DNA of 64,000 nucleotides from Neelides folsomi (taxonomy: Eukaryota > Arthropoda > Collembola > Neelipleona > Neelidae), in the NCBI GenBank assembly GCA_034687125.1, contig JAQGBZ010000333.1, positions 1-64,000 of the forward strand, read 5' to 3'. Made by a program: the position numbers and the translations under genes. Below are positions 15,304-59,435 of this stretch, one piece after another. How positions within the stretch are numbered: position 1 is the stretch's first letter; every line of letters starts with the position of its first letter. The notes beneath the pieces are model-generated. The model was not told the origin of the DNA and ran no database searches. It saw nothing but the letters and a program-made list of their open reading frames with translations.

Positions 15304-17818
15304 ATGGGAAGATCAACGATGAAGGTCTTTACTTTCTTCGTGTTTACTGCATCAGCGCTTGTTCTCGTTCCTGCAACTTTTACAACTCCTTCTTCTGGGA
15401 GCCTGTTGAAGAGTGCAACAGGTGGAGAAGCCGAATCTAAAACTCAGATTCAACCAACTTCCAACACATCTGAAGATGAAGACAAAGAGACACTCGAAGA
15501 TGTAAAACCCCATGCTCGTGGAAGGGATCTCGTCTCTAATATCTCGAAAGAATATGATGGGAGATCTAGAGGAACTGGAAGTACTGGAACCAAAGGATTT
15601 ACCTTTCCTGGCCCTACAACCACTTACTTGGAAGTTAAAAAACCAATTGAGTCTGGTCGCGATTCAAAAAATAACAAAGATTATTTGAAATCGACTGCTT
15701 CCACAGCTCATGAAGAAGAAGACCGAGAAGCCAATGAACAATTGAGAGGTCCAGATTATGCTAAAACTTCTTCGCAATATTACGAAGAGTTTTCTCCTTA
15801 TTCTAATAGCCCAAGCCATGAGGCTCCACAAGGATCTCGTCCATCTAAAGGAGAATATCCTTATGAATTTGACAAAGAAACGACTCCTTATTCCCAATAC
15901 AATGAAGAGGAATATCATCCAATGTCTCATTATAAAGGACAAAAATATTATTATCCCAAATATCTGAGCAGAGGAAAGCAGACACAATATTACAAAGGTC
16001 CACAACCAGCTCCACAAAATGAATATTCTCATACAGTAAATCATATCGACCACGGCCACGGGCATGAACATTATGGGCAACATGGGTATAATAATATTTA
16101 ATTAAATTTCAAATTAAAAGATTGTGACATGAAATACTGATTAATTGGATCTATTTTTAGGACTTATGTTGAACATAAAGGGAATTCATTCGGCTCAGGG
16201 TTTGGCAAAGCACTCCAAGTTCTTATTCCATCGGCTCTCTTCCTTACAGGAGTTTCAGCCCTTTTTCCTAAAAAAGTAAAAGTCCCAATAGATAATATTG
16301 ACCCGTAAGTTGCAAATAAATTACAAAATCTAATGTAATAGAGCAAAACAATTATAATACTTAACACTAATACGTTAAAATACTCATATTGTCTAATTAT
16401 GTTTTTATTAAATAATCTGGTAATAAGTAAAAATTAACATTCAATGTAACATTAAATATGTTATAACTATCCAACATTTTTCAGAAACTCCAATACTTAT
16501 CAAGAACAACAGTTGAAAAATCCATATTTTGGGAATATTGGCTCATACAATCAATTAAATGGCTATGGATATCAATATAAAAGGAGTAAACGTTCAACGT
16601 CATCTGCAGCACATGATGAAGATTATGTCGAAGTTCCATCTAAGCTTATGAAGATTGAACATCGAATGGCTGACGAATATGACTATTTGGATGAATTTCC
16701 AGCCTATGAAGCAACGAGAAATACAGAGAAAAGAGCTTTAAATTCATATTCAGGTCCTAAATCAATAGATCTTGGACCTTCGGGATATTTACCAACACCT
16801 GATACAAGAGTCGCTGCTGCTGCGGCTGGAAATGGACGTGCTGGATTTTCAAAACAAATTGAAGAGTTTAAGAGTCAATTTGATGAATTATTCAGTCCAA
16901 TACCTTCTCAAAATATTCAAGCCCCAAAGAGACAAAATATCAATTTGTACAATCATAGAGTTATTCAGCCAATTTATCGTACTTCGACTTCGACAGCTTC
17001 AACTTCAACAACAGAAAATCAGAGAAATAATTTGAGAAATCGACCAACTCAAACGACAACAACATTTACAGCATCTCGCATCCCCGATGTTGAAGATACA
17101 ACTGAATATTACGACGAAGGTTTAACAACTTTTGGAACTACAAAATCCACACCTCAAGTACAACAGCAAACCAGACAACAGGAGCAGGTGAAGAATAATG
17201 AAAGAATTATTAGCAGTCCAGTACCATCAATTGAAGCTCCAATTCCAGAAATTCGAACCCCAACACCAAGAAGGAGATTCAACAACTTGAAGCCATACAT
17301 TAGAAAAAATAATCTACTCAAAGTTACTCAATATAACTTGGATGGATCGAGATCGGAAGTTCGACTTCCTCAGCGATCTCTTGCACGAGAAATCATTGAA
17401 GAAAACGAGAAAAGGAAATCACTGACAACTTCGACGCCTCGACCTCCACCAAGACCAACAACAACCCCACAACCTACGGAATTTGACCTAAGTCTTGATT
17501 CGCCTGTTATGGGATTATTGACAAACTACGCTGTTCATGACAATGAGTCTCCTGATTGTCAGAAGAAAGCATTGTGTGAACTTGCTCAAAAAGGATCAAA
17601 ACCATCGGGCACAAAGTTTGAAAGATTCCTTTGGACCCTTGCGGAATTGTAAGCATTGACTTTCAAAAATGCTAAAATTAATCTTTTTTATTTTTATTTA
17701 CAGAGTTCCTCCTTCGCTCAGTGGGATGTACGATCTTGAAGATATTTTTGGAGCAATCCGCACCAAATCGTGCTCAGCCTATGTTTGTGAAAACCCAAAT
17801 GTAATTATTCAAGAATAG
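15304..17818 (+). CDS. Secreted/membrane protein with C-terminal Cys domain, 734 aa (family member 1)
   Basis: Four coding exons: 15304-16085, 16161-16304, 16485-17648 and 17704-17818; all junctions are GT-AG and the frame stays open (2205 bases). A signal peptide follows Met1 or Met6 (core VFTFFVFTASALVLV). The next 250 residues are acidic, Ser/Thr- and Tyr-rich with HGHGHEHYGQHG. Exon 2 holds the only later hydrophobic segment (LQVLIPSALFLTGVSALF). A KRSKRS processing site follows, then an Ala/Thr-rich linker. The C-terminus carries C667-x5-C673-E and C720-SAYV-C725, split by a phase-2 intron in codon 697. The coding start is preceded by an acceptor (TTTTATAG at 15282-15289), so a non-coding first exon lies upstream. 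The gene belongs to the same family as those at 21609 and 55703. The cysteine layout is reminiscent of insect DM4/DM12 proteins; function unknown. Confidence 0.85.
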
Positions 17819-19011
17819 TTAACATCAATTACTTATTATTAGTCATTTAAAATAAGTCACAAATCGCAAGTGTTGTTTTTATACTGCTAACTATTATTAC
17901 AATATAAATATGCCTTATTATACAGTAGTGGTGAGTCCCTTTGTCCTTTAAATACTTAATACAAAATTACATTGAGTTATGTTGAGTATCAAAGTGGTTG
18001 TATTGTATAAGCTAATATTCAAATAGAAAAGCAAAGGATTATTTTACTCGTATTAGTAAATACGTGTTTTGTATAAAGAAAGCTCAATTTATAACAATAC
18101 AATTCCATACATAACCAATATGTAAATTGGCAAATAGCGATTGATTAAAAACTGTTTAAAGGTCAGTTGAAAGAAAGTTTTACGTGTGGTCTTCTCTTAA
18201 GTATGCATCCGCTGTTAATTTACTTATTAAATTAAATTGTGAAAGTTGATAATAAATAAATAAATAGCATACATACACTGAACAATTGCTTTTATATTTT
18301 AAACCACTTTTCTACTCAATAGACATAATTTGAACTTATTTGAATAACCTTCCGTATCGAGACTTGTTTGCTACTATTGTAAATCAATTCGAAACCAGAT
18401 TCTTCCAAACTCATATAATAATCAACTTTAAAAGAATATGAGAATTTCCCTATTAATATTGTAAACCATATTTAACTAGAATAGGTATAGCTTCCTTTCT
18501 CAATATTTTGTTTTCTTTTGCTACGTTTTCTCTCGTAGCATTGACCTCTATGATTGCAATAAAAGTTTTTAGATTTTTTGGGATGATTAGTTGTTTCATT
18601 TAATGCATTGATTATATCTGTGAAATTGACTTTCGCATTTCACAATTGTGTACGCATCTGATTGCAATCAATGCAATGGTATACTGATCTTCACATTATT
18701 TCAAGATATACGTACATGCATAATATACCTATTAATTTCAAAGATATACGCAAAAATTTTCAAGTACAATACCCATCTTAAGATTGAACTTCACCTTGCT
18801 TTTTATTCTTATTAACAACATACAAAATTCCTACTTTACTTTATTATTTGTACTTTTATGGTTAGAGATACCTTTAGTTACATATTTTGTGCCTATATAG
18901 TAAAATCAGATAGGTATGTGAGTAATGTAAGTTATATACCACACTTTTGTAGCAAATTCAAAGTAATAAATATTATGCACGAATACAATACACACAGTAT
19001 ACTCATTGAAG

Positions 19012-19132
19012 ATGAATGATCAGACAAAATTGGAAGAAATGAGGTTAACGACCAACCCTAAGGTGAATATTTTCATTTCTTTGATCTTTCTCGTGCTTTC
19101 GCTTCAGCAAATGTCAACAATGGGGGCAAAAG
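19012..19132 (+). CDS. Candidate first coding exon with signal peptide
   Basis: From ATG at 19012 the frame encodes 40 residues with a strong hydrophobic core (NIFISLIFLVLSLQQ) and ends in AAAG/GTAATC, a fair donor, in phase 1. The stretch is GC-richer than its surroundings. A possible partner is the phase-1 acceptor TTTTTCAG at 20224-20231, followed by 68 open codons. No homologue is recognised; it may be the start of a small secreted-protein gene or a chance ORF. Confidence 0.3.
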
Positions 19133-21608: not shown

Positions 21609-22691
21609 ATGAATTGGAAGGGGAGAATCGGGCCGGTAGCTTTATTAATATTAGTAGCCGTTTTCTCCAGCGCCGAGGAGAAAGATACGAAAAGTTCAAT
21701 TGCTCAATTAGTCACTAAGCTCAAATCATCAGGTGAAAAAGATGGGAGACGTCTTTGGTATGGCGGAGAAAGTCTCTCAAATGTTCCCTCAGCCCTCCCT
21801 TCCCCAGTTTTAATTTCTTCCCAACCCATTACAATAACCGGAGCAAATGGCACCGGGGGAAAGCGAGGGCGAATGCTCGAACCAGCAAAAGTCGACGGAA
21901 TTAAGACCGTCGTTGGTCACCGAGTTCCAGACAACGAAGAGGACAAATTTTACATGTGGAGGAATGCACGAGTCATTAAAGGTCATTTGGTGCCCAACGA
22001 CAAACCTGCGAATCCTCATCGAAAGAGACAAATACAGTATTTGGCAACAAACGGCGGAATTCCTCAACAGCAATCAGCCACAGTGATTGATGCTACAAAT
22101 TTTGGAGCCCAGCAACAGACCCAACAGCAGCAACCAAGTATTTATTATGCACAGACACAGCAACCTCATCAGCAGGCGGCAACAATTGCCCAACAACAGG
22201 ATTTGGGAAATGTGTACGCCGTGAATCAACAGACTCCACAAGCAGTTCATCACTACCATGCTCCGTCGGTAATTCCTCAACAAGCCCAAGTCAACCCATC
22301 AGCCAGCCCCCAGGACGGGCAAGTTTATGTTCTTCAGGATCAAAACCAATATATGCAATATTCAAATCCATCAAGTCCCCATCATGCACAAGTTCAAGCT
22401 CATCAAATTCAACAGCAACAGCAACAACAGCAGCAGCAACTCGCACAAGCCCAGCAAGCTTACGCTTCAAGAAGTGGAGAAGTTGCAGAATCCAATGCCG
22501 CTTCACTCCAGGCTCAAGTTGCTTCTCTTCTCCAACAAGCTCCAGTTGCTCCAAAGCCCATTGAGCACAAAGTCCTCCCTGTCCAACAAATTATTCAACA
22601 ACAGCCACAACAGCAACAGCAACAACACATTGTCTATCAAACACAGCCACAACAAATCCAAGCCCATCATGTTCAACAACTCCAACAGCAA

Positions 22692-22750
<59 letters not shown>

Positions 22751-25700
22751 GCACCAAGCCTCTGTTCTCCATCAACTCCAACAAGCTCAAGTTGTCCAGC
22801 AAGCTCACCCACAACCCCAAGCTGCTCCACAAATATACCAATTACAATCTCAACCAGCTCAGGCTCAAGCTTTTACCCAACAGCTCCCTCACTCACAATT
22901 TGAAGAAAGGCAAGCTGCTTTGCCTTCCAATACCCAATTCGTCATTCAACCACATACTTACATGGCAGGGCCAGGAGGTCAATTGTTCACTCTCCCTGTT
23001 CCAATTCCAGCTAATCATGCCGCTAATGCAAATTCGGCCTCATCAGAGTCCTCAGAACATCAACCTCACGAATTCAAGCTCCCAAGTAGCGCTCGTCGAG
23101 AAGACCACATCAAGGAAAAGAGGCGGGAACGAAATAGGCCAAATATTATGAACAAATTCATGGATGCTATTAGCTCTAACCGCCGCTCAGTTATGGAAAG
23201 AGTTGAGACCAATGCGGCTCTGCCGGTCCTTGCTACCTCAGGTGTTTTGTTCGGTCTTGGAGCTTTGGCCGCTGGATGGTATTTGTCTAAAGGGAACAGA
23301 GAAGTTGGAATTATTAGAAGATCAGGAAAACCCGCGCCAAGTAGTGGAAAACCAGGAAGGATAAGGAGAGCTGCAGCTGAGCAAGTGGACCAAGCTACTT
23401 TCTTCCAAAAGATCATTCAACATGCCATTGCAAAGCAACAGGAAAAGTATGAAGTTGAGCCTAGCGTAGCGGCATCCAGCCACGAACATCATTCTCCCCC
23501 ACCAATCCGAAGAGGCAAAGTGAAGTCCAAGCCACATCACCACCACTCAAAGGGAGATCATCATGATTCACATCACTCCGAGTCCGAGACTCATCATCAC
23601 CATTATCACAAGGGATGGAAAAAGGGACCGAGCAAATTGGAAAGGAAGAAGAACTTTGCCCGAGTTGCAATTCCTGCTGTCATCTTGGGCGGTGCAGTTT
23701 TGGGCATTGGCGGCTTAATCTTCTATTGGTATATGACAGGACATAATAGAGAAATTGCCTTTTTGGAGCCAGCAGCTTATTCCCGAAGAAAGAGATCTTT
23801 GTCCAAGGACCTCTCAGAAACTTGGATTCACAAGACGTTAAGTGCCATTCATTCGAGTCCATATGAGGAAGAAACAACGAGAGATGTGAACTCCGCTCTA
23901 CCTGTGATTGACCCAAATTTCCTTGAACTCAGCAAACATGCAGATGATGCGAAAGTCTCGAATGCAGCTGTTGGAGGCGTTTTGGCAGGAGCTTCACTCT
24001 TTGCCATGATGGCCATTTTACTCGGATGGTATTTTGCAGAACATGGATCAGGACAAGGTTGGAATATTGGAAATAATTTATTTGAACAAGCAGAGTCTCT
24101 TGGTTATGGCCATCCCCCACATGGTTATCCACCATCAGTTCATAAAAAATTAGGACATCAAGCTTCACCGAGGACCAAACGGTCGGCAAATGAACTTTCT
24201 CTCGGATTCACCGAACATCCTGGGTTTTTATCTAGAATTTTGAGCAATTTGGAATTGAGTGAAACGAGCATATTGAAGAAGTTGAAGGATTCTGCTCAAT
24301 ATGGGAAATGGCAAGAAACCCCATGTGCGAAGAGGATCTTCTGTGATGTTATGTCTTCACAATCTGATGACACTGTGATGCTCTTGGAGAAAAGAATTGC
24401 CAATTTCTTAACGCTGTAAGTCATTTTCCTACTCAATTTCATTTTCTAGCGATATGAATTGCTTTTATTTTTTGGTGTCATTATCATATAGCAATAAAAG
24501 ATGTTAGAATAAGGTTAAACCAAATTAAATTTAAACATTGGTAATGTTTAATTTTTCTGACTAAATTAATCAAAATTTCGACTCTCACGATATTCCCATT
24601 ATGCATTAATCGAGCCATTAATCCCAACTTTAAAGTAAGGTTACGTAATTTTGAATTTTTTGTGATATAAATTCCATTATTACCATTTTATTGTTTTAAG
24701 ATAATATAAACTTGTATAATTTTACTAAAGAAATTTAATGATTCTCATTTAACAATAAGATAATCCGTTAATTCACAATTAATTAGGGCAGTTTGAGATT
24801 TAGTAGAAGTAAAAAAGTAAAACAGATATTTTCCTTTTCTTAGCTTATATTTATGTATTGAATCCTTCTAAACATCAAGTTCAAGTAAAATTCATAAGAA
24901 TTCTAGGTCAAATAAGTAGAACCATTAGAATCCGATTTTTACTCAAAGATCAAATAATTGAGAAGGATGTATTGAAGATTAAAGCTGTGAGACAGAGCGA
25001 CCCTCACATTGCGTCTTGCGTTCGTGTAACCATTATGAAACAAGTTTTTCACTTCGAACTTGACTCTATTCTACTTATGATGATGAACATAAGAGTGACC
25101 GAGTGCCCAACCTATTCCAGTGGTTCCCCGATAAATGGCACACATTCTCGCCTTTATTAAGGAGATGTAAACTGGTCTGTGTGGAAGTTTGTTATATGGC
25201 CAAACCCGGTTTCATCTCATTTTATTGAACAAAGGCCAAAGGGAATGTAGGCTAGGATCTTACATCTTCCTCCACTAAACTCCACTTACATACCATAATC
25301 ATCCTCACTTGGCCCAAACACTTCTCCTTCTCTTCTTCATGAAATTCTCGTCGTTTCATTCAATCAGCTCACCTTCTCATCTCACCGATTTGTGGCGAAT
25401 TAGCCAAAATACAGAGAAATTAAGTAGATTAGTCACCAACGATGTTTTTATAATTTACTAGAAAGCGCTTGCGGTTGATGAATATTAAAAAAGGTCGTCA
25501 ATCTTCAATACACAATGCACATTATAGACAAAGGACCAATAACCTGAAACCAAATAACTAATTATTAACTTAATTTCATTTGACGTATGTAGGACTTTCA
25601 GCTGTTTAATTGAGAAAAGCCGCAATCGGAATTTAAATAATTTAATAGCACAATAATCTTTTAAACGTTGTAAACTTCTTCAAATGACTATGAAATGAGA

Positions 25701-26275
25701 AAATGTCAATAAGAAATAAGACATTATAAAATATGATTCTATGCAGAATTGAATAGCAAAATGGATAGTTGTACATATTATATTAAATTATTTGTCATAA
25801 AAGGTCAAATTAGAATCATGACTGTGTTTTGGTCAACTTAATTGAATGGTTCGTAGTCTGATATGATTTAAATTAATAAATGTATTGAATCCCGGAAAGT
25901 TTTACTAATCAATGAAGGCCAGGAGAGCAGAGTTGAAAGGTCTTACTTGCGTTTAGAATGAAATGAAATGTACAGTTTTACTTTTTTGCTCCCTGCACTG
26001 CTTTCATTGCTCATCATCTCCGAGTCATCTCATTCTTTGTATTACAAATGATTAAAAAATGGGGAGAAAATGATGTTCATTTGGTCTAATTTGTTTCGTT
26101 ACTTTCCAGCCTCCCAGACTCGCTCTCAGATACCCTTTCTCGCATTCTTGGTGAGGTGTTTGTGGCCATCAACAAAAGAGATTGCTCATCGTACACTTGT
26201 GGGGGTCACTGGGTCGACACGAGTGTCGTAGACTCCCCAAACTCCCCAAAGTCTTCCTCAAACCAACCGAGATGA
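21609..26275 (+). CDS. PolyQ multi-TM protein with C-terminal Cys domain, 990 aa (family member 2)
   Basis: Two coding exons, 21609-24415 and 26110-26275, join in phase 2 to give 990 residues. The unspliced frame stops just past the donor, so the real C-terminus is the short second exon. Layout: signal peptide 1-22; RKRQ dibasic site near 140; Gln-rich region about 150-480 with a pure glutamine run near 360-386; a His-rich stretch near 640-670. Three similar modules follow, each a hydrophobic segment (about 534-560, 686-710, 784-810) trailed by a basic cleavage site (RIRRA, RRKRS, RTKRS). Last comes the cysteine domain C906-x5-C912-D and C961-SSYT-C966. The intron falls in codon 936, 24 residues after C912, matching its paralogues. 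A TATA box and a 5' UTR intron precede it. Function unknown; probably secretory pathway, membrane-bound or proteolytically processed. Confidence 0.88.
22687..22770 (+). repeat. CAG/CAA repeat coding polyglutamine
   Basis: A (CAG)n block passes into a (CAA)n block, coding an almost pure run of about 26 glutamines within a wider Gln-rich region. The switch from CAG to CAA keeps the same residue while changing the DNA repeat, as expected for polyQ kept by selection or expanded by slippage in two steps. Confidence 0.85.
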
Positions 26276-28727: not shown

Positions 28728-30025
28728 TCAAATTGTAAGAGCGACTTGATCCCTAAATTTGTTTCTAGCTTTAAGTGACTTGCTTTCAAGATCATGATGA
28801 ACATTAATTGAAGAATTATTTCCATTTAATGAAGGGGCAACTGTGTAAGTGTTGTAAAATTCGTCTGATTGAGAAAGAGGAGCCTTTAGTTTTATACAGA
28901 TATTGTGAAGCACAGCAGCGGAAATCACAATCTTTGTAGATTTCTCTGGCGAATAATACAACGTCCCCCCGGCTCTATTATAAAAAATATTTTATTAAAC
29001 TAAAAACTAAAAATTAATTATATATTAAAATTTACATATTTATAAATGAATATTTGAGGAAGCTTGTAATCATACTTATCTATACAACATCATCGTGATT
29101 TAAATATTTCAAGGGTTCTTTCAACTAAGCAGCGTGTAGAGATTAACGCTTTGTTGTAGCGAAGTTTTGATGGATGATTAGGATTTTGATATGGAGTCGT
29201 TAACCAGTTTTCTTGAGGGTAGCCCGAATCCCCTGAAATATAAAAAAAATATTAAAATTTGCAAACTAGAACGATACATGAAAACTCCAGATAAAATTAT
29301 TTACTGTGACAACTCTGTATCCATATAGAAATCATATAAAATTACCTAAGAACCAGTCATCGCCCAATTGTCCACTTCTGAGATCTTTTATTTGGGAATT
29401 TTTCCATATAAACGAATCGTGTGTTGAACCGGGGAACTTTGCAACGATATCAGTAAACGAATAATCATAGTTAGCTACTACTTGAACGTTAATGGAACAA
29501 TACTGTTTTCCGCAGAAATACAGTTTGGGATTTATTTTGGGAGCCTTAAGAGCTATCTGAGTACCATCAACAACTTCTAAAACTTTTGGAAATCTCTTGA
29601 TATCATAAAATCTTTGTTTGGTCAGTATTTGCTCTTCTGGAGATTCGGGGAATTTTATCCATTGACGAGCAATTTTAATGAGTGAATTGCAACCATCCGA
29701 AATAATGTATCCTGCAAATTGCCTTGAAATTCCCTTGTCACTTCCAATTAACCATTGGACGCTTCCAGATCGAAGGAATTTTAAAAAAGAATATCTTTGT
29801 CTCAGATGATATTGTCGAATTATAATTTGATTCGAATTGAGGTTCTAATATTTCAATTACATTTTCGACATTATTTTTACTGACTCCACAGTGTTGAATT
29901 ATTTCACTTTCACTTAGTTGTTCAATTAGTTTTCTTCTTTTAATTTTAGGCATTCTTGGTTCAAAAATAAATTGAAATTCCATTTTTGGTGTTAAGGAGT
30001 TGTCACAGAAATGTGGAGCTGCCAC
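28728..30025 (-). pseudogene. Harbinger DDE nuclease (HARBI1-like), broken
   Basis: This encodes the DDE_4-type nuclease that cuts and pastes the element. Read from 30025 leftwards, the N-terminus carries a helix-turn-helix-like segment (SESEIIQHCGVSKNNVENV). After one frameshift comes RSGSVQWLIGSDKGISRQF, then the catalytic motifs VVDGTQIA (first Asp), KFPGSTHDSF (second Asp) and RCLVERTLEIFKSR (Glu). A GT-AG intron (about 29234-29346) sits inside FLG/DSGYP, and a second short intron is likely near 28970-29050. One in-frame TGA follows FKSR. The tail has YYSPEKSTKIVISAAVLHNIC, the usual C-terminal signature. All three catalytic acids are present, so inactivation looks recent. Confidence 0.85.
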
Positions 30026-35990: not shown

Positions 35991-38900
35991 ATGAGCGAAA
36001 TTGACGAAATGGCATCACCGAGTCTTGGGACGAACTCAATTAAACTATCCACAGAACACCTCTCTAGTCTGGATCTCCATCAGTCGATTATAGGAGACTC
36101 CAAGACCAGCGGTATCAATTGTAATAAGGATAAACTCTCAGGGTCAAGAGAGTCCAGCATTGATCGGAACGTTGAGTTCATTGAGATTCTCTCACGTTCA
36201 GAGGACATTTCAAAAACCAAGTCCGCGGAATGTGACAACAAATCATGGGGATACTACGAGGGCGATTCGGACGAAGAAAACAAATCAGCAACTCTTAAAA
36301 AGAACGAGTCACCGCCGAGTGAAGAAAGCCCGACAGAAAATGGACCCGTTTTTAAAGACACATTCCATACGCCCAGCTCCTCATTGCAAAATCTCGTTTT
36401 GACGGATGAGAACAACGAGGGTAATGTTAGTAATATGACATCAAATTCAAGCCCAAGCATAACTTACTCCCCGATAAACATTATTGGATATGAACAATCG
36501 GATCAAAACATCGATCAGATCAGCTTAAGTGAGTCCCTTGACTTGCCGTCAATCCTCATAAGAACTCACCACCTCAACGATGATCTTCAAGCGACTCACT
36601 CAAATTCTACGTCAGATTTAACACAAAGCATGGAGTCGAATTTGTCGACCACTTCAAAAGATTCTCAAGAAAGTTCTAGTTCAATGACAAAGTCGAACAG
36701 AGATCTCTTCATGGGTTCTGTATCCAACAGACCGAATAAGAAAAAGATGTGGTATCATGTATTTTCAGCTTCCTACAAGACGAGAAGTGGAGATTTTAAA
36801 AGAATTTTTAAGGAACTTCCTGCAGAGGAAAGATTAGTCGTTGGTAAGAATTTTTTCAAATTTTTCATACTTAAACACTAATAAAATAAATAAAAGATAT
36901 TTAAAATATATGGTATTCTTTTAAACTAGGTAGTTCAATCAAATTATTAACTATAGTCTTTATATTTATTACTGAATTTGTAATATTAATTACCATAATG
37001 GAATGAATTAATGGATATTTTTAGATTACTCCTGTGCGTTACAAAAAGAGATTCTCATTCAAGGACGGATGTACGTTTCACAAAATTATATTTCATTTTA
37101 TGCAAATATATTTGGATGGGAAACACAGACGTCGATCCGACTTAAAGAAGTCATTGCAATTTCCAAAGAAAAAACTGCACTTGTCATTCCTAATGCTATT
37201 CAAATATCTACTGACATTGACAAATTCTTCTTTACGTCCTTCGTCACTCGAGATGCCACACACCTGTATAAACTTATTAAATTAACAATACTAAATACAT
37301 ACATTTTTACTGTTTATCACTTTTTTGCCAAATTTTTTTTATTACTTTTAATTATTTGTTTTCGTTTTATTCACAAAATTCACAATACAATTAATAAGTG
37401 CATGGCTAAATAATTTAAATATTTTGTATGCGAAGCAAGGTAAGCAAAATAATCAATTAAAATTTTAATATTTCAGAATGCTTTTCAAACTGTGGCAGAC
37501 TGCCCTTTTGGACGGCGTAAGTGAAATTTGAATCAATATTTGAACTTGAAAAGAGAAAAGAAAAAAAGATGAATGAACATTGAAATAATAATATAAATTT
37601 TGGAAATTTTTCAGAACCTTTCAAACAAAGAAATATGGCGTCTGGTTCATTCCAGTTACGGGGATGAATTGGGAGTTAACAGTGAAGAAGACGATGACTT
37701 CTTGGGATGTGATACTGGATCATTGATGAGTGCTCCGAGCATTAGTACTTTAACCAGCGAAGCAGATGACAACAAATCGATAGAAATCGATCAAAATCAG
37801 GTTAGTTCTTTTCAATATTTAATGAAACACTGTTTCTTTATTATTTACGCATCCACCTAGCCGAGTTCTATATTTGATAAATGTCAAATCAATATGCATT
37901 GTGACTTTGAAATTTGGCCTTTCGATCGATGTATTTGAAATGAACAGAATCATTTTTAAAACAGGTATTATTCATTCAATATTTTCCCAAAATGATCTAA
38001 AAGTTAATTTCATTATTTTACTTTATTAAAAATTTTTTTTAATCTTTTAAAAATTATTGATAAAAGTCAATTTGCCTAACAATTCTTAACACCGTATCAT
38101 TTGTAAGTCTTTGTCTTTATTAAAATCACATTTTAGTTTACAAATGCATATAAAGATTTTATAAGTGCAATGAAAGAAAAGGCTTTTCTGTATGGGTAAT
38201 ACAATAGAATACCTCTATGTAACATGTGTTATTCCATTAAAACTTTATTTTAGTAAAACAGCATTTTTATTGGTAGCATTTTGCAAGAAAAACAAGGTTT
38301 TATTTCAATTGAATTTGAGAGGCAAATGCCATTCTAGATAATATGACCAAAATTCTACTAAATCTCACGTTATGTTACCATTAACGAATCTTAAATCACT
38401 AATATTATACAATATACAAATATAACGCAATATGAACCTTTAAGTATAGAGCAGGCTTGAAAGTTATTGTAATACATACCATTTGTTATATTATAAATAA
38501 CAGGCATTAGAAATACTACACACGTCTGTGTATTAAATCATTAAAAATTCGCAAATGATCTGGATTTACGGTATAAAATAATCGATAAAATTCGCAAGTG
38601 TGAGAGTTTTGCGCATACAAAGAAGTCTTATAACATATTACTTTATTGATTGATTAGCTTATTCGCCTGATTAAACGATAAGGAAATGTTGATTAGAACT
38701 GATAATCTTCGATAACGTTAACTGGCGCACTGTATTCTATGCACGTATGCGTAGTGCCATGTGACATGAACTTTTTACAGGAATATAAAATGACTCGGTA
38801 TTAATGTGAATGACATCATCAAAGTAAAGTTTGGAAAAAATATTAAATTTTTATTCCCGATATTAACCACAAATTGAAAGCTGGTAATGATCGTTAATTG

Positions 38901-44196: not shown

Positions 44197-44202
44197 TTTA
44201 TT
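44197..44202 (-). terminator. AATAAA poly(A) signal overlapping the EMC3 stop
   Basis: On the minus strand EMC3 ends TCT CAA TAA ATT, so AATAAA contains the stop codon. It is the same arrangement as in the gene ending at 1617. Confidence 0.55.
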
Positions 44203-45066
44203 GAGATCCATTTCGAACCGATCTTACTTCACCATCTGTTATTTCACATCCCATGAGCCTTTTATCGGCATTTTTGAGAATCCACGTGTGCTTTGCAACC
44301 TCGAGGGCTTCCCATTCGGCTTTAAAGGCAACTTTTGGATCGGGTGGCATGGCCATTGCGGCTCCTGACATTTGGTCTTGCATGATGCGGGACTGGTCCG
44401 CTGCATTATTTTCTCCTAGCACCAGTGTGTAAATACTCCTCAGCCCAAATACGTTGAGAAAATACCAGGACGCCGAAGAGACCCAAGAAGCGTCCAAAGT
44501 TAGCAATTCAATTCCTCGTTGGAGCATTGGCTTAAAGCGAAGAGTCAAAGGAAAGGGAACTGAAATTAAACAAAAGTGAAAATTAAATGGCAATTCATTC
44601 AATTTGTATTTTACCTTTTATTTAATAAATTATTTTTTTACTATAATTTACCTTTTGTAGTAACAAATCCAGAAAATGTCCAGTTAATCCAACCACCGAT
44701 GAGAATCATTGGAAGGACATTGGTCAGATTTCCCTTGAGCATCTCGGTCATCATGTTCGGATCCGACATTGGATTTTGCGGTGGAGCAGTTCTCTTCTGC
44801 GTTTTAAAATACCCCGTGTCTTCGTCGTTGAAGAAGTGTCTTCTCATGAGGAAACTCTGTTCTGGCAAATATTTCCCATTTTCTCTCAGCAACCTTGCCC
44901 GAATCATGGCTTGACTATCTTGGACTTGGAGGAGCTCAACTTTTTTCTGGGTTGTTAATAACATAGCCACGTAATGCCGAACGAGCCCGACTAGAAAAGT
45001 AATAATGACGATCGGGAAAAAGACCCATAGTCTAATATCCGGATCTAACATTAAATCGTCAGCCAT
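44198..45066 (-). CDS. EMC3: ER membrane protein complex subunit 3 (EMC3), 258 aa
   Basis: EMC3 is the Oxa1/YidC-related core of the EMC insertase, which places tail-anchored and multipass proteins in the ER membrane. Exons 45066-44652 and 44559-44198 join in phase 1 across a 92-base intron (AAAAG/GTAAAT ... TTTCAG) to 258 residues, close to the 261 of human EMC3. Three membrane segments are visible: about 13-33 ([14 protein letters not shown]), 118-138 ([14 protein letters not shown]) and 163-188 ([18 protein letters not shown]). Between the first two is the cytosolic coiled region with [18 protein letters not shown], highly characteristic of the family; [15 protein letters not shown] follows. 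The gene is divergent from SIRT1 (527 bases between start codons) and tail-to-tail with the GRAMD1-like gene. Confidence 0.96.
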
Positions 45067-45593
45067 TGTAATTTTTATTTACAATCCCCGATTTAATAAC
45101 TTCCTCTCCCGAACAAATCCGAATGAAATCGAAATTGATTGCAAATATCACATTAATTTTAACCAATTTAAGAATCCCACCCTCCCGAAATCTAACCAAT
45201 GGGAAGGGTCCTTGATAGTTCTTTGAACCACGTCCTATACTTTTTTAAACGGACCTTCGCTCCTGCGCCCCACCCAACTATATCCCGATATATTAACCTA
45301 ACTCTTTTCAACATACAATTCCCTTATAAGCCTCAGGTCTTATGTTGTTTGACTACAAAGAAGACGAAATCAAGTGCAGATTAAAGTTGAGCCAGAGCGT
45401 CTATATTGATCTGTGGATAAAAACCTTCCATGTTTCTGACGGAAGGTGTTTGAGGTCTCGTTCTCCTCCGTGTGAGCTGAGGAAGTTCGTGTGCGAAGGG
45501 AAGGGGAGTTGTGTGGACGTGCGGAGCTCCCTCGCCTCTCTACCACCATAAAGAACATACGAAGCCAGACGAGAAAGAGAAGGGGGAAAAAAG
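45067..45593. promoter_or_regulatory. Shared EMC3/SIRT1 divergent promoter region
   Basis: 527 bases separate the start codons of EMC3 (minus) and SIRT1 (plus). The SIRT1-proximal half is clearly GC-richer than the surrounding DNA. No TATA box is obvious for either gene, as is common for housekeeping divergent pairs. ORFs within it have no protein character. Confidence 0.5.
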
Positions 45594-48500
45594 ATGGAGG
45601 AGAGGAGGGAGTTCTGCCACGGACCTAAGCCGCTCGCCCTCGACATCGAACCCGAGCGGAAGAAACGCTGCATCCGTTTCCCCTCTGACCTCTCCACCGA
45701 AGACCCGCTTCTCGTCTCCGACTCGGGCTTCAGCGACTTCTCGGCGGGGAAGACATGGATCGAACATGGCGACTCGGAGGTGTCCCCCTTCTTCGATCTG
45801 GGTGAGTCAGAGGTTCCCCATTGGGCAGTTCAGCCTCAGTCCCCGCCCTTCTTCTCCTCGTCTTCTCCTTTCTTTTTTCCGTCCCCAGACAGGGGGCTCT
45901 CGCTCCTCTCTCCAGTTTCCTCATCTTCCCTCATCTCCATCTCATCTCGAGATGATCGACAAAATCAATAAAAATAATTACGGCTAATGTATTTAGTCTC
46001 TAAAACATGTATTCTTGTATTCGACTTATTACTTCATCGGGCTTATTAAATGGTGTAGGATGAGGCATTATTTAGAATTTTTTTACAAGTTATAAAATCG
46101 TAAATAATTTGATTAGAATATAAAGGGCTGGCAGTTAAAATCATTTAAGCAGGTTTCAATTGAGTTAATCAATTAATCATGATATATATTTACAATTAGG
46201 CGAATTCTCTGTTGAATTAACCTTTTATGTAATGTTTGGCACTTATATTGGGTTGGGTAATGGGCATGGGTATATCTGGTATATCTTGGCTTGGAAGCCG
46301 GCTCAGAGCTCCAGTGAGTTTGAGTCGTAGTCACAAGACTCGAAGAGCGGAGTAAGGTCAGTGCACTCGGCACAAGGGGGATCGAGAGATCTTTTTATTC
46401 TCATCATATCTCTACGTTGATTTACAATTTTTTATGAGATTCTTTTATCTGATTCTTCCAACATCAATTTCAATGGCCTTTTTAGATAGCACAATACATC
46501 ATACAGTAAAAAATAATAAATTTGTCTCATTGAATCATTGCATGGCTTTTCAAATTTTTTAATTTGAAATTTATTTCAGGTGAAAATATTGGATTGTTTG
46601 AAGATTCGAATCATCCAATTTGCACTGGAAGGTCACAGTCCCTCGACAGCGATTCATTAGCTACTGAGGAATTGACCAACGACTTACCAGAGCCAGACAC
46701 CGCCGGGGTAAAATCATCTGAAAGCGAGGAAAGTGAAAAAAACGGCGAAAGCAGCAGCAGCAGTCAATCAAGTTCTGGAAGCGGACTTCCAACATCAGAA
46801 GATTCTTGGGAGCAGATTTTGAATCATAGCGAGATTTCAAAATCTCCTGGACGAACTGCGATGCTTCAGCGTTTTTTGTCACATTTACGGAATAATCCGA
46901 ATGATCGACAGCTCCAGCATTTCCTATCTATTCTTCTATCTGGCCCTGAATTTGCACCGCCAAGGCAGCGCCTCCGTCATGTTGCAAACATCCAGGACGT
47001 CATTAGACTTCTTAGGTAGTTAATCATAAACTATTTTATATTAATTTTTAAACTACCCCAATCGCCACGCCGGTTGAGAGAATTATTCTTCGGCCGGTGC
47101 CAATATTCATTATTGAAAAGGGGAATATTAATCCGTTTGGGAGCTATGTAGGAAGCATTTTGACCATAATGGTTATTAAATGTGCCGAAAACAGATGCCA
47201 CAATTATTTTATCATTGTTATTTATCATTTCCTATTACTGTTTTACTTCATCTTTATTAATTTGATACTTGGTTTTATAGATGCTCTAAAAAAATCCTGG
47301 TGCTGACTGGGGCCGGTATCTCAGGTATGTTAAATAATATTCAAATATTCTACTCACAATTAGTTTAGTAGGAAAGATTTTTTTCAATATATTGAATTTT
47401 ATTATTTACAATTATTTCCAGTGTCGTGCGGTATTCCTGACTTCCGTTCCAAAGATGGGCTCTACTCTCGAGTCTCCAAAGTATTTCCTGACCTCCAGGA
47501 TCCGCAAAGCGTATTTGACGTGCGCCTTTTTCGGAAAGATCCACGACCATTTTTTCTAACTGCTAAAGAACTTTATCCTGGACAATTCGAACCTTCACTC
47601 TCTCATCAATTTATTCGAAAGTTGGAAGCTCGGGGTCAACTTCTTAGAAATTATTCCCAAAACATTGATACTCTTGAGAATATCGCTGGGATTGAAAATG
47701 TTACAATGTGTCATGGTACGTTTCGCCTTTATTTGTTTAATAATTTTTTACTAAATGTATTGGTATTTGCAATAACTGGTTTTAAATGATTTTTTACTAA
47801 TTATATTATGATTTACTAGGCTCTTTTGCGACAGCGACATGCTTAAAATGCAAATTCAAAGTTGAAGGTAGTGAAATTAAAGAAAAAGTTCTAAATGGAG
47901 AAGTTCCTTATTGTCCCACATGCTCGAATGAAGAAGAAACGAAGAAATTAGTTTTCCCACTAGGTCAAAGAAGAGTGTCTTCAGATGCTCCTAATGAACT
48001 TGGATCGCCAAGACATTTGTCTTTTAACGACGACGATGACGACACATATCCTTCAGAATCGTCTTTTCCAACCCCTCCTGTACTTAAGCCCGACATAGTG
48101 TTTTTTGGAGAAGATCTTCCCGATGAATTTCACAATAACTTGCAACAAGATAAACCAGATTGCGACCTTCTGCTTGTTATTGGATCTTCATTGAGAGTTA
48201 GGCCAGTATCTCTAATTCCAGGTATGTTTCTTATTTTCAATTCTAAAATTAATAAATCGGAAATACTAATTGAAATATTTTTTAATATTATTTTTTACCT
48301 TTCAGGAATGCTTCCACCTGAAGTTCCGCAAATATTAATTAATCGAGAATCTCTGAGTCATTGTCGGTTCGACGTTGAACTCTTAGGGAATTGTGATGGA
48401 ATAATTTCACATCTCTGTCGAAGTCTTGGAACCGATTTTGCTGACCTCGCGTCAACTACAGATCTAATGGAAATTGACAATTTACCATCAAGAGAATTTG

Positions 48501-48896
48501 AAAGCACACAATTATCAAGCGATCCCAAGTCAGAGTATGATATTCAGGCTTTAAAGGCTTGTTGGGAGCCAAAAGTCAATGAAAATATTTCGGAGAGACT
48601 TCCAGGTTAGCTTAATTCATTTAAATACTTACAATATTAATGTTTACTGATGGGAACTTGGAATTAAATTTCGCTTTCTTTCCTTTCCAGATAAGTGTTT
48701 TTTGAATTGGAGGCCAAGGCAATATATTTATGAAGGTGCTGAAGTTTTACTTGATCCGGATGACGATGATGAAGAGGATGATGATGATGACTCATCCTCA
48801 AGTGGAGAGAGTGATTCAAGTATCTCATCAAACGAAAACAAGAGTGACAAATTTATAGGCCCCCAACCCGAACCTACATTAAGCCCCAAAAAATAG
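45594..48896 (+). CDS. SIRT1: NAD-dependent protein deacetylase sirtuin-1, 629 aa
   Basis: SIRT1 removes acetyl groups from histones and transcription regulators in the nucleus using NAD. Seven exons (45594-45801, 46580-47015, 47281-47324, 47422-47715, 47820-48221, 48306-48605, 48691-48896) join in frame to 629 residues. The core starts near RQRLRHVANIQDVIRLL. NAD-binding motifs are TGAGIS (224-229), GIPDFRS (233-239) and QNIDTLENIAG; the catalytic His is H327 in MCHGSF. Zinc cysteines are C335/C338 (CLKC) and C359/C362 (CPTC), with the usual 20-residue gap. KPDIVFFGE and GSSLRVRPV follow. Odd: about 54 residues, Ser- and Asp-rich, separate CPTC from KPDIVFFGE, where human SIRT1 has nine. The tail is acidic (LDPDDDDEEDDDDDSSSSGE). 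The start is the first ATG of a GC-rich exon. Nuclear location is inferred from the family. Confidence 0.95.
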
Positions 48897-51800: not shown

Positions 51801-54800
51801 TACCTATTTTATGTAAAAAAGTAGATATGAACTTTTTCTTGCAATAAATACAATATCTATACCTTTTATCTATTGTTCAACATTCAAAATCTTCCATGTG
51901 CATGCCTATTTTGCCTATGCCTACACTTAAAGACAACTTTAAGATCTTATATGCTGACGTAAAATAACAAATACTGGATATGTAAGTAAACCATACATAT
52001 AATAAACAATGTATTAGCTCTATGATTTTAATGGTTCAGTGACCGATAGTGAACTTGATTTCCACTTCTTTTCCTATTAGCCCATCCAATTTTCAAATAC
52101 CAAAAAGCAATAGTGTTTACAAGTACATATGTATTCTATGTGCCTCCATATGTAAGTACAAATAACTATATAGTATGAATGCCATTTGCATCTGTAAAAA
52201 TAACAAAAGTTATTAAATATTGAATTATGATTTTGTCTAATGACACTAATGAATACCTGCGAGACATGTATTTATTTGCAATGTGAGCTTATAATATGGA
52301 ATGGACGGACTTGCTCTCTCTTGCTCTACTGATTCAAATTCCCATGGTTTCACATCTTACATGTTTTAATAAGACAAAAGACACAAATAACCCAAATAAG
52401 AGTAAACGATATGATAGAGCAAGTTAAAATCTGAAAGTTATTTATTTCAAAGTTTTGTTTCCGTATTTGGATAAATAATGTGCTATACACACTCTACACA
52501 TTGATATACTCTAAAATCTCCATTAGAACGCCCCACGTTCTATTCGCAGAATTGAAAAAATACCCCGCGTTCTAATAGAGACTCGCGATCTATTAGAGAC
52601 CCGCGCTCAATCTAAAATTCTACAATTATTTTTTACAATTTTCTTTAGAAAAATTACTATTTCATGTTTAAATTTTGCGAAATATGAATGATTTTCATTT
52701 AAATAGTAATATAGAGTCTATATCATTTAATTTATCAATGCTCACACCTCAAAAAGATGCGAGTTTTCTTATAAAGACCCGCGTACTAATTGGGACCCGT
52801 GTTCTATTAGAGACCCGCGTTCTATTTGAAAATTTTAAATCAACCCCCGCGTTCTAATAGAGACCCGCGTTCTAATGGAGACCCCGCGTTTTAATGGAGA
52901 TTTTAGAGCAATATACCTATTTATTATATTAATTAAGAATGTACTATGTATTGTATATAAAATGCACTATATGCCTTATAACATAAGATATATATGTATT
53001 AGTCTTACAAGAATGTGCCTTACATTCAGATTTATTTTATGTATGCATTTTAAAAGGTTAAATAAATAGGAATAGGATACATTTTCGGTAATTATATGAC
53101 AAGTGCGTGAGATATTACTAATTGCATGTTCTATGAATGGAAGAAGTACATTTAGTTTCAAGACAATTGGAATTTATCATCAATGCCCTCAATATGAGTA
53201 CTTCAAAATCCAATCTCAGATAGAAACATTTATTATTTGACTCCAATTTAAAGAAAGGACTTAAGGCCCTTAAAAGTAATTTAATACTCCCATTAAGAAT
53301 TTGATTTCATTTTTGTTGGATCAATTGGCAGTCCTTATTTTCTACTCACTCCACACTACTTACTACTTATACCTATTCATAAATATTCGGCCGAATAAGA
53401 TTATATGGCCATTTCCTTACTTTTATTGCCTTTCATCGAATATCTTTAGCCTAAATCAATTTGGTTTCAAACTTGAAATAAAAATTAAATGAAAATTTTA
53501 TGAGAATGACATCCTTTCTTTAAAAATTCAATTTAAAGTTTATTAACATTCTATGCTAATACTGTGCATATCTAATATCATGGCCATACATTGGGAGGAA
53601 TTTCCTAACTTTATAAATAACTTTATAAATATAAGTTTAATTTAAACATCAATTCAATTTTTATGGTCATTTTTAAATATGTAAAATAATTGTAATCATG
53701 CCATGGTACCGCCAGAATTTTTGGCAAAGTTTATGGATAATTTATCTTTGAACACAAGATAATCTATTACTTATACCTTCAGCAATGTGTACTTATTTAT
53801 TATTAAAATGTAAGGTAAAAAATATTTCTTTATTCTGTTTTGTTTTAATTAGATTTTTCATACAATTTAAGCTTCGGTATCAAGCGATGAAATAATAATC
53901 CAATTTCTATTTTATAATCAAAGGAACTTTCTGTTACGCCATGCACTAAAAGGAAAAGAGCCAATTAACAATTTTGACATTTTGACATATAAATCCTTCT
54001 TGCTTGTAAAGCGCAAAATGTTAGAAATTCACAATGACTCTTGATTCCAAGTCATCATCTTGTAACTCACTCAACATATTTTCACCTCGTTAATTGTTCA
54101 CTACGATCAAACAAGAATGTATACATAAGTGCGTTAATTATTACATATGCTACATTTAATTTATCCCTCTATGTTTTAACTAGACTTTTCTCACAAAGGA
54201 AGGTGTGTCGGTTAAATTGTACAAGAGGAGAGCAACGAGAGTCATTCAAATGTGTCATTCGTCCTTTCCCTTTCATTGTTAACTATCTCTGAGCGTGATG
54301 ACAGGTGAGTTACGGAATCATGTGCAGGTATGAAGACTGTGTCATTTATTAAATTACGATTAATTACTACTCAAATTTCGTCACAGTGGGATTCCTCCTT
54401 CTCTCTTTAAACTCATTATGTATCATAAAATAATAACAAATTGAGGTAAGAAGTCGAAAGAGGATGATGAAGGAGCAAAAGAGTGAAAACGAGGGCGGTT
54501 CCTTTTTCTACGCTCCTCTGAATAGTCTCATCATACAAAATAATTTCAGGCAATGACAATTGCTTTAATTATAACAACCAAAACTCAAATACTTGACTTC
54601 CAAGTTCCAAGAATGTTGTTTGGCTAAGATAGTTTGCTTGTGTACAAAGTGTGTATCATCAGTTTCTTCACCAGTGTTTCTCTCACTCGAGCACCTGCGA
54701 AAGTCATAAATGCTTAAAAGATAATTGAACTATTGAGTTTTACATACACACCGGCACATAAAATGTTAATGACATTAAAGAATGAGGAGTGTATTAAGCT

Positions 54801-55069: not shown

Positions 55070-55077
55070 TATATACA
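55070..55077 (+). promoter_or_regulatory. TATA box of the 219-aa family gene
   Basis: TATATACA lies in GC-rich DNA 633 bases upstream of the ATG at 55703. A non-coding first exon from about 55100 to 55390 (ending TCCAG/GTGCGT) would splice to the acceptor TTGAATAG at 55693-55700, two bases before the ATG. The arrangement copies that of the 990-residue paralogue. Confidence 0.55.
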
Positions 55078-55702: not shown

Positions 55703-58700
55703 ATGAACGGAAGAACAAGTCTCGTCCTACTTGTAGGCATTTGCTGCCTCGCCGTTGCCTTCGCAGCTTCCACCTCCAACTCCAAAAGACTCGTCCGTAC
55801 CAGGATAGTCGGATCAGATAAAATTGAGAAACGAGCCCTCGACGCTCCAAAGACGGACAGTACGAAAGCGATCATTCAAGTGGCCAAGGCCCTCGCTCGT
55901 TCCCACTCAACATCCGAAGTCCTCACTTTGAACTTGACGAATCTCCTCATCCTCATCGTCCTCAAAGCAATCATCTTCGGAATCGGACTTTTCTATTTTG
56001 GCGGTGTCTCCTTCAAGGGCGGTCACGGAGACTCCCACGGAGGAGGGTATGGAAGAAGTCTCGGCGGGAAGCCGTTGATGACAGAAGGAGAAGTGATGCT
56101 TATGCTCACTTACCTTCTTGGAGCTGCAAATGATAAGTATGACTGCATGTACCGAGTTGCCTGTGAAGATCCATCAAAGGCCAAGAGCTACTTGAACGCC
56201 TCAAAGATGCTCCTTAAAGGAGCGAAATTTGCGAAAAAGTGAGACATTTTGATTCAATAACTTTTCCTCTTTCTTATTAGTAGTATCCGCAATCATTAGA
56301 ATATCAATGGTACTTGGTTCCTTTCCCAGCAGTTTTATTTTACTTTCATCATCCCTTTCATATACCAAGTCCCAAGCGTGTGATAATTAAGAGAACGCAC
56401 AGCTCGCACAGTCAAGTTCAAGCGGCGTAGATCAATATCATGCATGGAAAAAGGGAAGAGTGTGTGAGCGAAACAATCGACGGAATAGGATACGAAGAAA
56501 ATTGTTCCATCTTCCGCTTACTCCACTATCCCATAATCCTACATACATAAATCCATTTGTATATTCTTAACTACCACGAGTTCCAACTGAGAAGAAAGAT
56601 TCATAAGTTTCACTCCAAAGCCATTATTATTCAATAATCATTTGACTGACATTTACGACATTGCTAATTCCAACCCTGTAAATTCATAGCAATCCGCTGT
56701 GTAAAAGCAAATTGAAAAAGAGACCGCATTTAACATTTCCCTTCCAGAATATTTTTATTCGAGTACTCAAACACGTGAGTTTATATGGCATTTTTAAATG
56801 GTTAGGTTTTAATCATTTAGCTCCAAGAGCTGAGTCCTTGAACTTGAACAATTTGGGATTGATTATAAAGGTGTGCTCGTATCGAGGAGTTTGCACGAAT
56901 CCACAAAATATAGGGAATGGATAGACCAGAGTTCACAGTTTCACAAGAGGGTGAACTTTTGTGGGTAGAAGTTGCATACGTAATATTGTTAAGGGTGAAC
57001 TCGGTGCATATGGAGGACTCCGCCTCAGTTTCCCAAATCGAGGCGTACAGAGTGACCAAAAGTTATTCAGGCACTTGGCCTCTCTCTTCATAACATTCGC
57101 AAGAGTCCGTTAAGGTCACTCTTCTTCCTGCTAGCCCAATGGGTTGCCCTGTGGAAAAGCCGGCTCGGCAAGTTTTTGAAGATGTTCGTGTAAAAAGTCC
57201 TGTAGGATTCTTCGTCTTGAGGAATTCTTCCCGACTGAAGTATTCAAAGATGTGTGGGATGGAGCGCCAAGAGCAGTAGGGCAATGTGTATCTTACCACA
57301 CACATATACTTATTACCTATCTCCCAACTCATCTTCACCTGTTCCATTTATTATGAGTCAGTCGTTGAGGTTTATTCAGTTTATTGCGACTAATAGAATT
57401 TCTGATGAGCTCTCCAAAATTTCCAATTATAATTAAGTATCTATTTTCAAGCTCATGGTTGAAAGGCTCATTAGGTGAAATTTAAATATTTTATGCGACA
57501 CGTCTCCCTTCATTACAAGTATTTCTTGAGGAAACGAACCCACACTCATACGCTTTCCCTCATCTTCCTCACCACCGTATAATTCTGCGAAGAGCCGGGA
57601 TCTTAATTCCATTCTGGGTCAACGGTCCGAACTGCCTTTAAAATGGCCAAATTGTCCTTCTTTGCTTTTAAAAAATGGAATGAGGTGCATTGGAAGGAAT
57701 CCTGAGCTCACTTATGAATCTTGCCTTGGCAGTTCCGTGAGGTCAAATTCCAATCAACTGACTCTTTCTTAAACAAACTTTAGTTCCTTCTCTTCTATTT
57801 GGCATATTGAAGGAAAACTCTCGATTATCATTACGCATTGGATTAAAACGTGATCATTGGAACCCAATTTCTTCTCAAACCTAGTAAAGCGTCAAAGTAG
57901 ATTTGAACAGGGATTAATTGATGTTACAAATAAAAAAATGTAATACTTTTAGGAATTCAATCATTCTTTTATAACTTGTTTAAAGTTGCTCTATAAGAAT
58001 AATAATCAAACCCAATTATTTATTTTGTATGATTAAATTAATGGTTCATTTCAAATAATGTATTTATAAAGGAAATATTTATACAATACTATTTGTAATT
58101 ACACGGATCAAGTTTCTTTGAATTACAGGCATAAAGTTAATTTGGTGTATTTAAGGTTAAATTAATAGCTTTTCATTTAATAATTAATTGCCCATTTAGG
58201 TATTTCATTAATCAACAACTCTCATTTTTTGTGCTAACTTGTAAAACAATATTGAATTTAAAGTAGGCCTTGAGGACGAATGTGTGCGAGTGAATGAGAC
58301 ACTCTTTTCTCTCATGGGATTTTTGAGAGGGGAAATTGGGAGAAATTAATGTGAGCGGAAGTTGTTATTGTTGTTCCTCTCATTTTATTCACTCTCAAAT
58401 TTGAGTGAAATTACTACATGACCTACCTGCATACATCCATACATTAATTTACCCAAATCATAACTCAATAATATCCTCACAGTTCATTAAGACTCAATTT
58501 GTTCCATTCATGACTCTCATTCTCAACTTTAAATAGCAGCCATAAGGTAAAATTTGGAATTATGGGGATACAATGGTCATAAAGTATATGAGGACTAATT
58601 TAACCCCATGGATGGTATCAAATGAGGTCTGGGATTTGAGTTGCACGAACTCCCCAAGTACCAATAAATACTTCCACAAACACTTTCCTCAAATTTGAGA

Positions 58701-59435
58701 CTTTTATGGCTAAAAATGATTGATCATTTTCAAGAGACGCGTAGAGATTTGAAGACTTCGTTAATTCATAATTTCATACACAAGAATTCCGGAGGTTCTT
58801 TTTGGGGTTAGGAATTTAATTAAAAACAAGACTTGATTAAACCATAGGACAAGTTTACGTAAAGTGTGCCCTTCCGCCTTCTCATCATCAGTAGCAGAAT
58901 GGGTCAGTCCTTCGACTTTTGAATTTGAGGATTTTAAGGAGATTCTCATTCACAGCACTGCGATTAGTTAACGGTGAACGGAAATGGTTTAGAATTTCTC
59001 ATTCCTCTCCGTCTCCGCATGTAAATTACGAATGTCTTCATCCTTCTTTCATCTTTCCACCGGCTGCTCAGGCAGGTTTTCATCGACCATTCATAACCAA
59101 TAACCACTATATATTTGAGCATACCAATCGATGCAAATATGCCTACAACATAAAGATAAATATCTTCCTTCATGTACAAAGAGAAGTAAACACCTTGTAT
59201 GAATAAAGGATTAACTTGCCATTTGCAAATGTAATTTTGCAAGGCGTGATTTTTAAAGCAGCAATTCATTGTAATGTGTTTAATCTAAACATTATGATTT
59301 TCTTGTTCCAGATATGTTACTTACAACCCCAAGTACGAGAACGTCGTTTACGGACTTCAAGACGCCGTCGACTTTAAAGCAAAGGGAGGTGAATGTAGTT
59401 CAAAATATATTTGCTCCGATGTTCCACAACTGTAA
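55703..59435 (+). CDS. Small membrane/secreted protein with C-terminal Cys domain, 219 aa (family member 3)
   Basis: Coding exons 55703-56238 and 59312-59435 join in phase 2 (AAA AA/A) over a 3.07-kb intron to 219 residues. Signal peptide 1-22 (LVLLVGICCLAVAFA). KRLVRTR and EKRALD are possible processing sites. A hydrophobic segment lies at 80-102 (LLILIVLKAIIFGIGLFYFG), followed by a Gly/His-rich linker (GGHGDSHGGGYG). The cysteine domain is C148-x5-C154-E and C207-SSKYI-C213. The intron falls 25 residues after C154, matching the two larger paralogues at 15304 and 21609. This is the most compact member and probably shows the family's minimal plan: signal peptide, one membrane segment, Cys domain. 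Family unrecognised; DM4/DM12-like is a tentative comparison. Without the splice the frame would stop at residue 179 and lose the second cysteine pair. Confidence 0.85.

Follow-up and report, generated by a model that had tools for sequence, protein, structure and literature searches.

Three precursor genes of Neelides folsomi as probable divergent relatives of the DM4/DM12 family

Do three genes of one contig that share a C-terminal four-cysteine domain and a phase-2 intron form a private family of their locus, or are they part of something larger? We addressed this question in a 64,000-nucleotide stretch of the collembolan Neelides folsomi (the window: positions 1-64000 of contig C333, JAQGBZ010000333.1, which has 69,630 bases) and searched the genome (75.1 Mb, 840 contigs) for relatives of the three genes, here called g1, g2 and g3. 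An initial annotation had taken them for a possible separate family set off by the intron and had remarked on a likeness to DM4/DM12 proteins. The available part of PMC12825958 describes the DM4_12 domain as a motif of 115 residues, unknown in function, in which four cysteines are highly conserved; the available parts of that article and of PMC3284338 say nothing about what the domain does.

Our results suggest that g1-g3 are probably divergent DM4/DM12 relatives encoding secreted or membrane-tethered precursors, within a superfamily found on 12 contigs. They are not DM4/DM12 members by Pfam's own threshold. Most likely they are members of a single large family of secreted proteins, still poorly understood, that comprises DM4/DM12 and its relatives, and the phase-2 domain intron is best read as an old intron of this superfamily that was lost in some copies.

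Gene models and domain architecture

Splicing in silico yielded open proteins of 734 (g1), 990 (g2) and 219 (g3) residues with predicted joins, bearing out the long open frames with a C-terminal four-cysteine domain that had first drawn attention to the locus. All five introns used have GT-AG borders, and the last one is in phase 2 in g1, g2 and g3 alike. The models, which draw on splicing, hydropathy, basic sites and cysteine counts, comprise the following features.

15304..17818, plus strand: g1, four exons (15304-16085, 16161-16304, 16485-17648, 17704-17818), 734 residues
17557..17648, plus strand: g1 domain, first half, from CQKKALCE to the phase-2 donor
17649..17703, plus strand: g1 domain intron, phase 2, 55 bases, GT-AG
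17704..17818, plus strand: g1 last exon, second domain half with CSAYVC, then stop
21609..26275, plus strand: g2, two exons (21609-24415, 26110-26275), 990 residues
24324..24415, plus strand: g2 domain, first half, from CAKRIFCD to the phase-2 donor
24416..26109, plus strand: g2 domain intron, phase 2, 1694 bases, GT-AG
26110..26275, plus strand: g2 last exon, second domain half with CSSYTC, then stop
55703..59435, plus strand: g3, two exons (55703-56238, 59312-59435), 219 residues
56144..56238, plus strand: g3 domain, first half, from CMYRVACE to the phase-2 donor
56239..59311, plus strand: g3 domain intron, phase 2, 3073 bases, GT-AG
59312..59435, plus strand: g3 last exon, second domain half with CSSKYIC, then stop

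The domain spans about 85 residues at the C terminus of each protein. Its four cysteines are all the cysteines of g1 and g2; in g3 a further two lie within the N-terminal hydrophobic segment. The first pair is C-x5-C in all three, with the motifs CQKKALCE, CAKRIFCD and CMYRVACE exactly as first reported. The distance from the second cysteine (Cys2) to the third (Cys3), previously given as 50-60 residues, measures 46, 48 and 52. The last pair is C-x4-C in g1 and g2 and C-x5-C in g3; the C-S-x-Y-x-C motif proposed for all three genes is therefore found in g1 (CSAYVC) and g2 (CSSYTC) and not in g3 (CSSKYIC). Splicing bore out a single phase-2 intron within each domain, its split codon being residue 24, 24 and 25 after Cys2. 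Scanning all six frames of the entire contig, we listed seven C-x5-C places in frames open for at least 15 residues upstream, of which four have a phase-2 GT 17-32 residues on: g1, g2, g3 and one that lacks the acidic residue and has the donor GTCTCT.

Hydropathy likewise agreed with the predicted signal peptides, basic sites and internal hydrophobic segments noted earlier. Each protein begins with a hydrophobic segment. In g1 a second such segment lies at about residues 274-296 and RSKR occurs at 342; g2 has a Q-rich region, hydrophobic segments at about 536, 686 and 787, and furin-type sites at 584 (RIRR), 726 (RRKR) and 855 (RTKR); g3 carries KR at 28 and 43 and a hydrophobic segment at 81-99, followed by a Gly/His stretch. 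Residues 498-905 of g2, approximately (window 21609-24415), consist of three hydrophobic units with a furin-type site after each. Units 1 and 2 are alike, with 0/1000 shuffles as good when the hydrophobic segment is kept in the shuffles; units 1 and 3 are more weakly so (5/1000, and 13/1000 on repeat) and units 2 and 3 the most weakly (33 and 32/1000). Such an internal repeat of membrane segment and cleavage site would be unusual.

Similarity among the three genes

We compared domain pairs by local alignment against 1000 shuffles, with and without the cysteine positions fixed. By this measure g1 and g2 are clearly related: their score of 80 compares with a mean of 24 among the shuffles (z 12, 0/1000 as good; z 10, 0/1000 with cysteines fixed), and they align without gaps from the first cysteine to the intron, and have that intron at the same residue. 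The g1 and g3 domains are moderately related (score 48, z 5.1, 0/1000; z 4.3, 3/1000 with cysteines fixed). The common descent that had been proposed is thus supported, strongly for g1 with g2 and moderately for g1 with g3, and g2 connects to g3 only through g1 and other relatives. Outside the domain, 28 pairs among eight regions were tested against shuffles in which the hydrophobic segment was preserved. On this basis we rejected homology among the N-terminal portions of the three proteins, and the earlier remark that the remainder of the proteins does not align holds. Only two region pairs reached 10/1000 or fewer, the first two g2 units and g3 with L045 (3/1000), one of the genomic loci (L numbers) described below.

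Relatives across the genome

Genome-wide Pfam match counts are lower bounds. The Pfam model DM4_12 (PF07841) matched at least seven places, six above the cut-off, among them L005 at 24.6 bits. All seven have an acidic residue after C-x5-C. The domain is interrupted in four of them (L002, L003, L004 and L007), which were picked by Pfam and not by their intron, and that intron is in phase 2 in all four, the split codon being residue 23, 23, 21 and 27 after Cys2. The stretch between the cysteine pairs is uninterrupted in L005, L006 and L008. Because the intron is common to DM4_12 genes and g1-g3, it is no mark of a three-gene family, and we rejected a private family defined by it.

A DNA pattern modelled on g1 and g2 (C-x-K-[KR]-x-x-C-[ED] plus one further fixed base) gave 48 matches against 24 in a reversed control. 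Reading the 46 matches outside the window, we kept five, L045, L063, L054, L080 and L047, and added a second gene beside L080 on contig C287. Four of these six further relatives have a sub-threshold Pfam DM4_12 match, which is the top Pfam match of L045, L063 and L080 (expectation value (E) 0.0007-0.0011, 20.0-20.7 bits, cut-off 22) and of L047 (E 0.034); L054 had no Pfam DM4_12 match. A phase-2 domain intron, the only phase sought, occurs in L045, L063, L054 and L080, with residue 20, 21, 21 and 21 split, and L047 has no domain intron. Upstream of L045 and of L063 lies an open frame with a signal-peptide-like beginning and a hydrophobic segment before the domain, the joins to the domain being putative. 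All six further relatives have the cysteine framework of g1-g3, with a last pair of x6 or x7 except in L054 (x4).

Together with g1, g2 and g3 this makes 16 genes on 12 contigs. Relatives are found on 11 contigs other than that of the window, and clustering in the window is therefore no defining feature. Some DM4_12 relatives sit side by side, about 1 kb from each other: L006 and L008 on C527, and L080 and the second gene on C287. C6:48407 and C6:50721 may form another pair, the former known by motif only. A second DNA pattern, C-S-x-Y-x-C-G, gave 26 matches, g1 and g2 among them, against 49 in its reversed control; for the other 24 no exon carrying C-x5-C and a phase-2 donor looked plausible within about 1.5 kb upstream, a range beyond which g2's own exon lies. 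The AGY form of this pattern gave one match. Two further stretches lie near relatives: an open frame near L063 on C91 (L093, 1-1431, plus strand) has hydrophobic segments that somewhat resemble the family's, and so does another near L054 on C32 (L094, 402-728 on the reverse complement); neither matched the family profile in the stretch read.

Profiles connect g1-g3 with DM4_12 genes

We built a 12-member profile from the seven Pfam-found places and L045, L063, L054, L080 and L047, leaving out the second C287 gene. It finds g1 at E 0.0009, g3 at 0.0025 and g2 at 0.008, with 0, 1 and 3 of 6000 cysteine-kept shuffles higher. Only seven of 1745 open reading frames outscore g1-g3, and all seven are exons of family members. 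When close partners were removed from the profile, g1 was found at E 0.00023 and g2 at 0.0011 (0/6000 each), and g3 at 0.022 with L045 left out (7/6000 above). Because five of the 12 members owe their discovery to the pattern derived from g1 and g2, a profile of the seven Pfam-found places only is the stricter test, and it finds g1 at E 0.032 (3/6000 above) and g3 at E 0.083 (5/6000).

Profiles of the window genes lead to the same relatives. The first match of a g1+g3 profile is the Pfam-positive L005 (E 1.2e-4, 0/6000 cysteine-kept shuffles above), and that of a g1+g2 profile is L063 (E 1.3e-5, 0/6000 above). Among 36 pairs of the three genes with the 12 others, cysteines fixed, the best are g1-L063 (z 10.5), g2-L080 (z 7.0) and g3-L005 (z 6.6), the last covering both domain halves. 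When the upstream hydrophobic segment and the GG-GDSH stretch are included, g3 resembles L045 with 3/2000 shuffles as good. In profile coordinates the introns of the eight interrupted others fall at positions 47-55 and that of g3 at 55.

Weighing the alternatives

Several results count against kinship with DM4/DM12, and four of them speak for the alternative that g1-g3 stem from one ancestor unrelated to DM4/DM12, the C-x5-C spacing and the place of the intron agreeing by chance. Pfam DM4_12 matched none of the three as full proteins or as domains up to E 10, in searches where HMMER's filters discard most matches above about E 0.1. A profile of the four canonical DM4_12 genes alone fails to reach them (E 15 for g2, 16 for g1 and 140 for g3). 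The spacing between Cys3 and the fourth cysteine is 4, 4 and 5 residues in g1-g3, and among the 12 others it is 6 or 7 in all but L054, which has 4 (x6 in six and x7 in one of the Pfam-found places, x6 in the four canonical genes). Finally, hhalign of g1-g3 against five DM4_12 domains gave a probability of 55% across 31 columns surrounding C-x5-C.

Other unfavourable results concern how far the links extend. Only 10 of the 36 cysteine-fixed pairs have 10/1000 or fewer shuffles as good (six for g1, two each for g2 and g3), and none of the 12 pairs with canonical genes does. The g2-L080 match spans just 21 residues around C-x5-C, the domains of g3 and L045 compared on their own have 139/1000 shuffles as good, and the alignment of g1 and of g2 with the 12-member profile is confined to the first domain half. 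The profile of Pfam-found places reaches g2 only at E 6.0 (131/6000 shuffles above). A blind, free multiple alignment puts the introns of g3 and L045 about 20 columns off the others. The pattern by which five profile members were selected also weighs here, as does the fact that only phase-2 introns were sought in four of them. Of the three, g2 is the weakest case, resting mainly on g1 and also on L063 and the short L080 match.

We nevertheless regard an independent origin as unlikely. All four interrupted DM4_12 genes found by Pfam have their phase-2 intron in the same region of the domain, the g1+g3 profile ranks L005 first, and several intermediates exist. The resemblance to DM4/DM12 is upheld through intermediates and profiles and not through the Pfam model, and a separate family set off by its intron is not supported. 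Taken as a whole, the earlier interpretation is partly supported.

The alternative readings given here are not mutually exclusive. One holds that there is no single family at all, g1 and g2 being paralogues and g3 having come from elsewhere, alike only by a common cysteine pattern. The g2 and g3 domains show no direct similarity (540/1000 shuffles as good), the similarity of g1 to g3 is modest, and the g1+g2 profile reaches g3 only at E 4.5 (39/6000 above); the first and the last of these also limit our preferred reading. Even so, g3 has the intron in the same phase and at nearly the same place, its cysteine-fixed match to L005 extends over both domain halves, and the 12-member profile finds it with or without L045. 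We find this alternative rather improbable.

A further alternative concerns role and not kinship, namely that g1-g3 are peptide-hormone precursors whose basic sites release active peptides. Basic sites are present in all three, but the only two amidation-type sites (G-[KR]-[KR]) lie in g2, at positions 46 and 84, a long way from the domain, and the proteins contain long low-complexity stretches and hydrophobic segments. This makes a hormone role very unlikely.

Origin as a branch of the Osiris family, which the available part of PMC3284338 describes as insect-wide and absent from other groups, has the least to commend it. That text gives Osiris proteins a signal peptide, a two-cysteine region and a transmembrane segment, so that the signal peptide and hydrophobic segment are shared features, and PMC12825958, as far as available, reports that two planthopper Osiris proteins are also annotated with DM4_12. 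The cysteine pairs of g1-g3 are C-terminal, however, Pfam found no DUF1676 domain (PF07898) and we found no AQxLAY motif in any of the three, and the only DUF1676 match that turned up genome-wide lies on another contig, its 3.3-kb locus scoring E 5.8 at best against the family profile; on these grounds Osiris membership was rejected and is largely excluded. That match, L018 (C457:42921-43256; at least one such place in the genome), scores 27.3 bits against a cut-off of 24.3, and the 225-codon frame around it includes a signal-like stretch. So small a count, being a lower bound, only hints at a species outside the insects.

Across Pfam as a whole g1 and g2 had no match and g3 only a chance match; NCBIfam matched none of the three domains. 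A search of solved structures gave a best E of 0.6 with the L063 domain and 0.03 with alignment A2, both to unrelated proteins, and returned no relative.

Surroundings of the genes

Beside g1-g3 the window holds a secreted-looking orphan, a 732-codon open frame at 1617-3815 on the minus strand, which has an early hydrophobic stretch and an RRRR site and matched neither Pfam nor the family profile. The other features are listed below.

29332-29844, minus strand: transposase-like gene or part of one, matching DDE_Tnp_4 (E 1.9e-13)
37012-37413, 44198-45078 (minus strand) and 47364-48610: conserved genes between g2 and g3, represented by one exon with a GRAM domain, two of EMC3/TMCO1 type and two of the Sir2 family
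52564-52905: tandem repeats of about 18 and about 68 bases, with units such as CCCGCGATCTAATAGAGA

Proposed mechanism and significance

As probable divergent relatives of DM4/DM12, g1-g3 share with that family the four conserved cysteines near the C terminus (stated for DM4_12 in the available part of PMC12825958), a first pair of the form C-x5-C-[ED] with the second pair about 50 residues on, and a phase-2 intron that falls 21-27 residues after Cys2 in four of the seven Pfam-found places, a range that includes the positions in g1-g3. Profiles and cysteine-kept shuffles point to similarity beyond the cysteine pattern, most weakly for g2. What distinguishes g1-g3 from DM4/DM12 is the lack of the canonical C-x6-C second pair, the failure to reach Pfam's curated cut-off, and, in g1 and g2, long precursors with furin-type sites, to which g2 adds its repeated hydrophobic units. 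To judge from the sequences, it is divergence too great for the Pfam model, together with the shorter Cys3-Cys4 spacing, that sets g1-g3 apart.

We propose that the N-terminal hydrophobic segment acts as a signal peptide and would direct each precursor into the secretory pathway. A furin-like protease may then cut at R-x-[KR]-R in g1 (342) and g2 (584, 726, 855), or at KR in g3 (28, 43), and the internal hydrophobic segments could tether the products to the membrane. The four tail cysteines would form two disulfides and hold together a compact C-terminal module, with the poorly conserved low-complexity remainder serving as a spacer or as a structural part of the matrix. As their likeliest role, the proteins may act as components or assembly factors of the apical extracellular matrix or cuticle; this is a guess from the usual role of such proteins, and we would put it below an even chance.

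More broadly, and tentatively, the ancient phase-2 intron within the C-terminal four-cysteine module could be the fingerprint of a large, mostly unrecognised arthropod superfamily of processed, membrane-tethered and secreted proteins, of which Pfam DM4/DM12 would be only the visible core. The N-terminal parts (poly-Q, Gly/His, repeated hydrophobic units) would change so fast that module and intron alone reveal kinship, and the module may be a common assembly or docking unit of differing matrix proteins.

Together our results correct the idea of g1-g3 as a private family of their locus; the family is larger than the initial annotation held. They indicate that secreted precursors of very different kinds have a C-terminal module in common, and relatives of DM4_12 that lie beyond the reach of its Pfam model and share its intron offer a route to the remaining superfamily.

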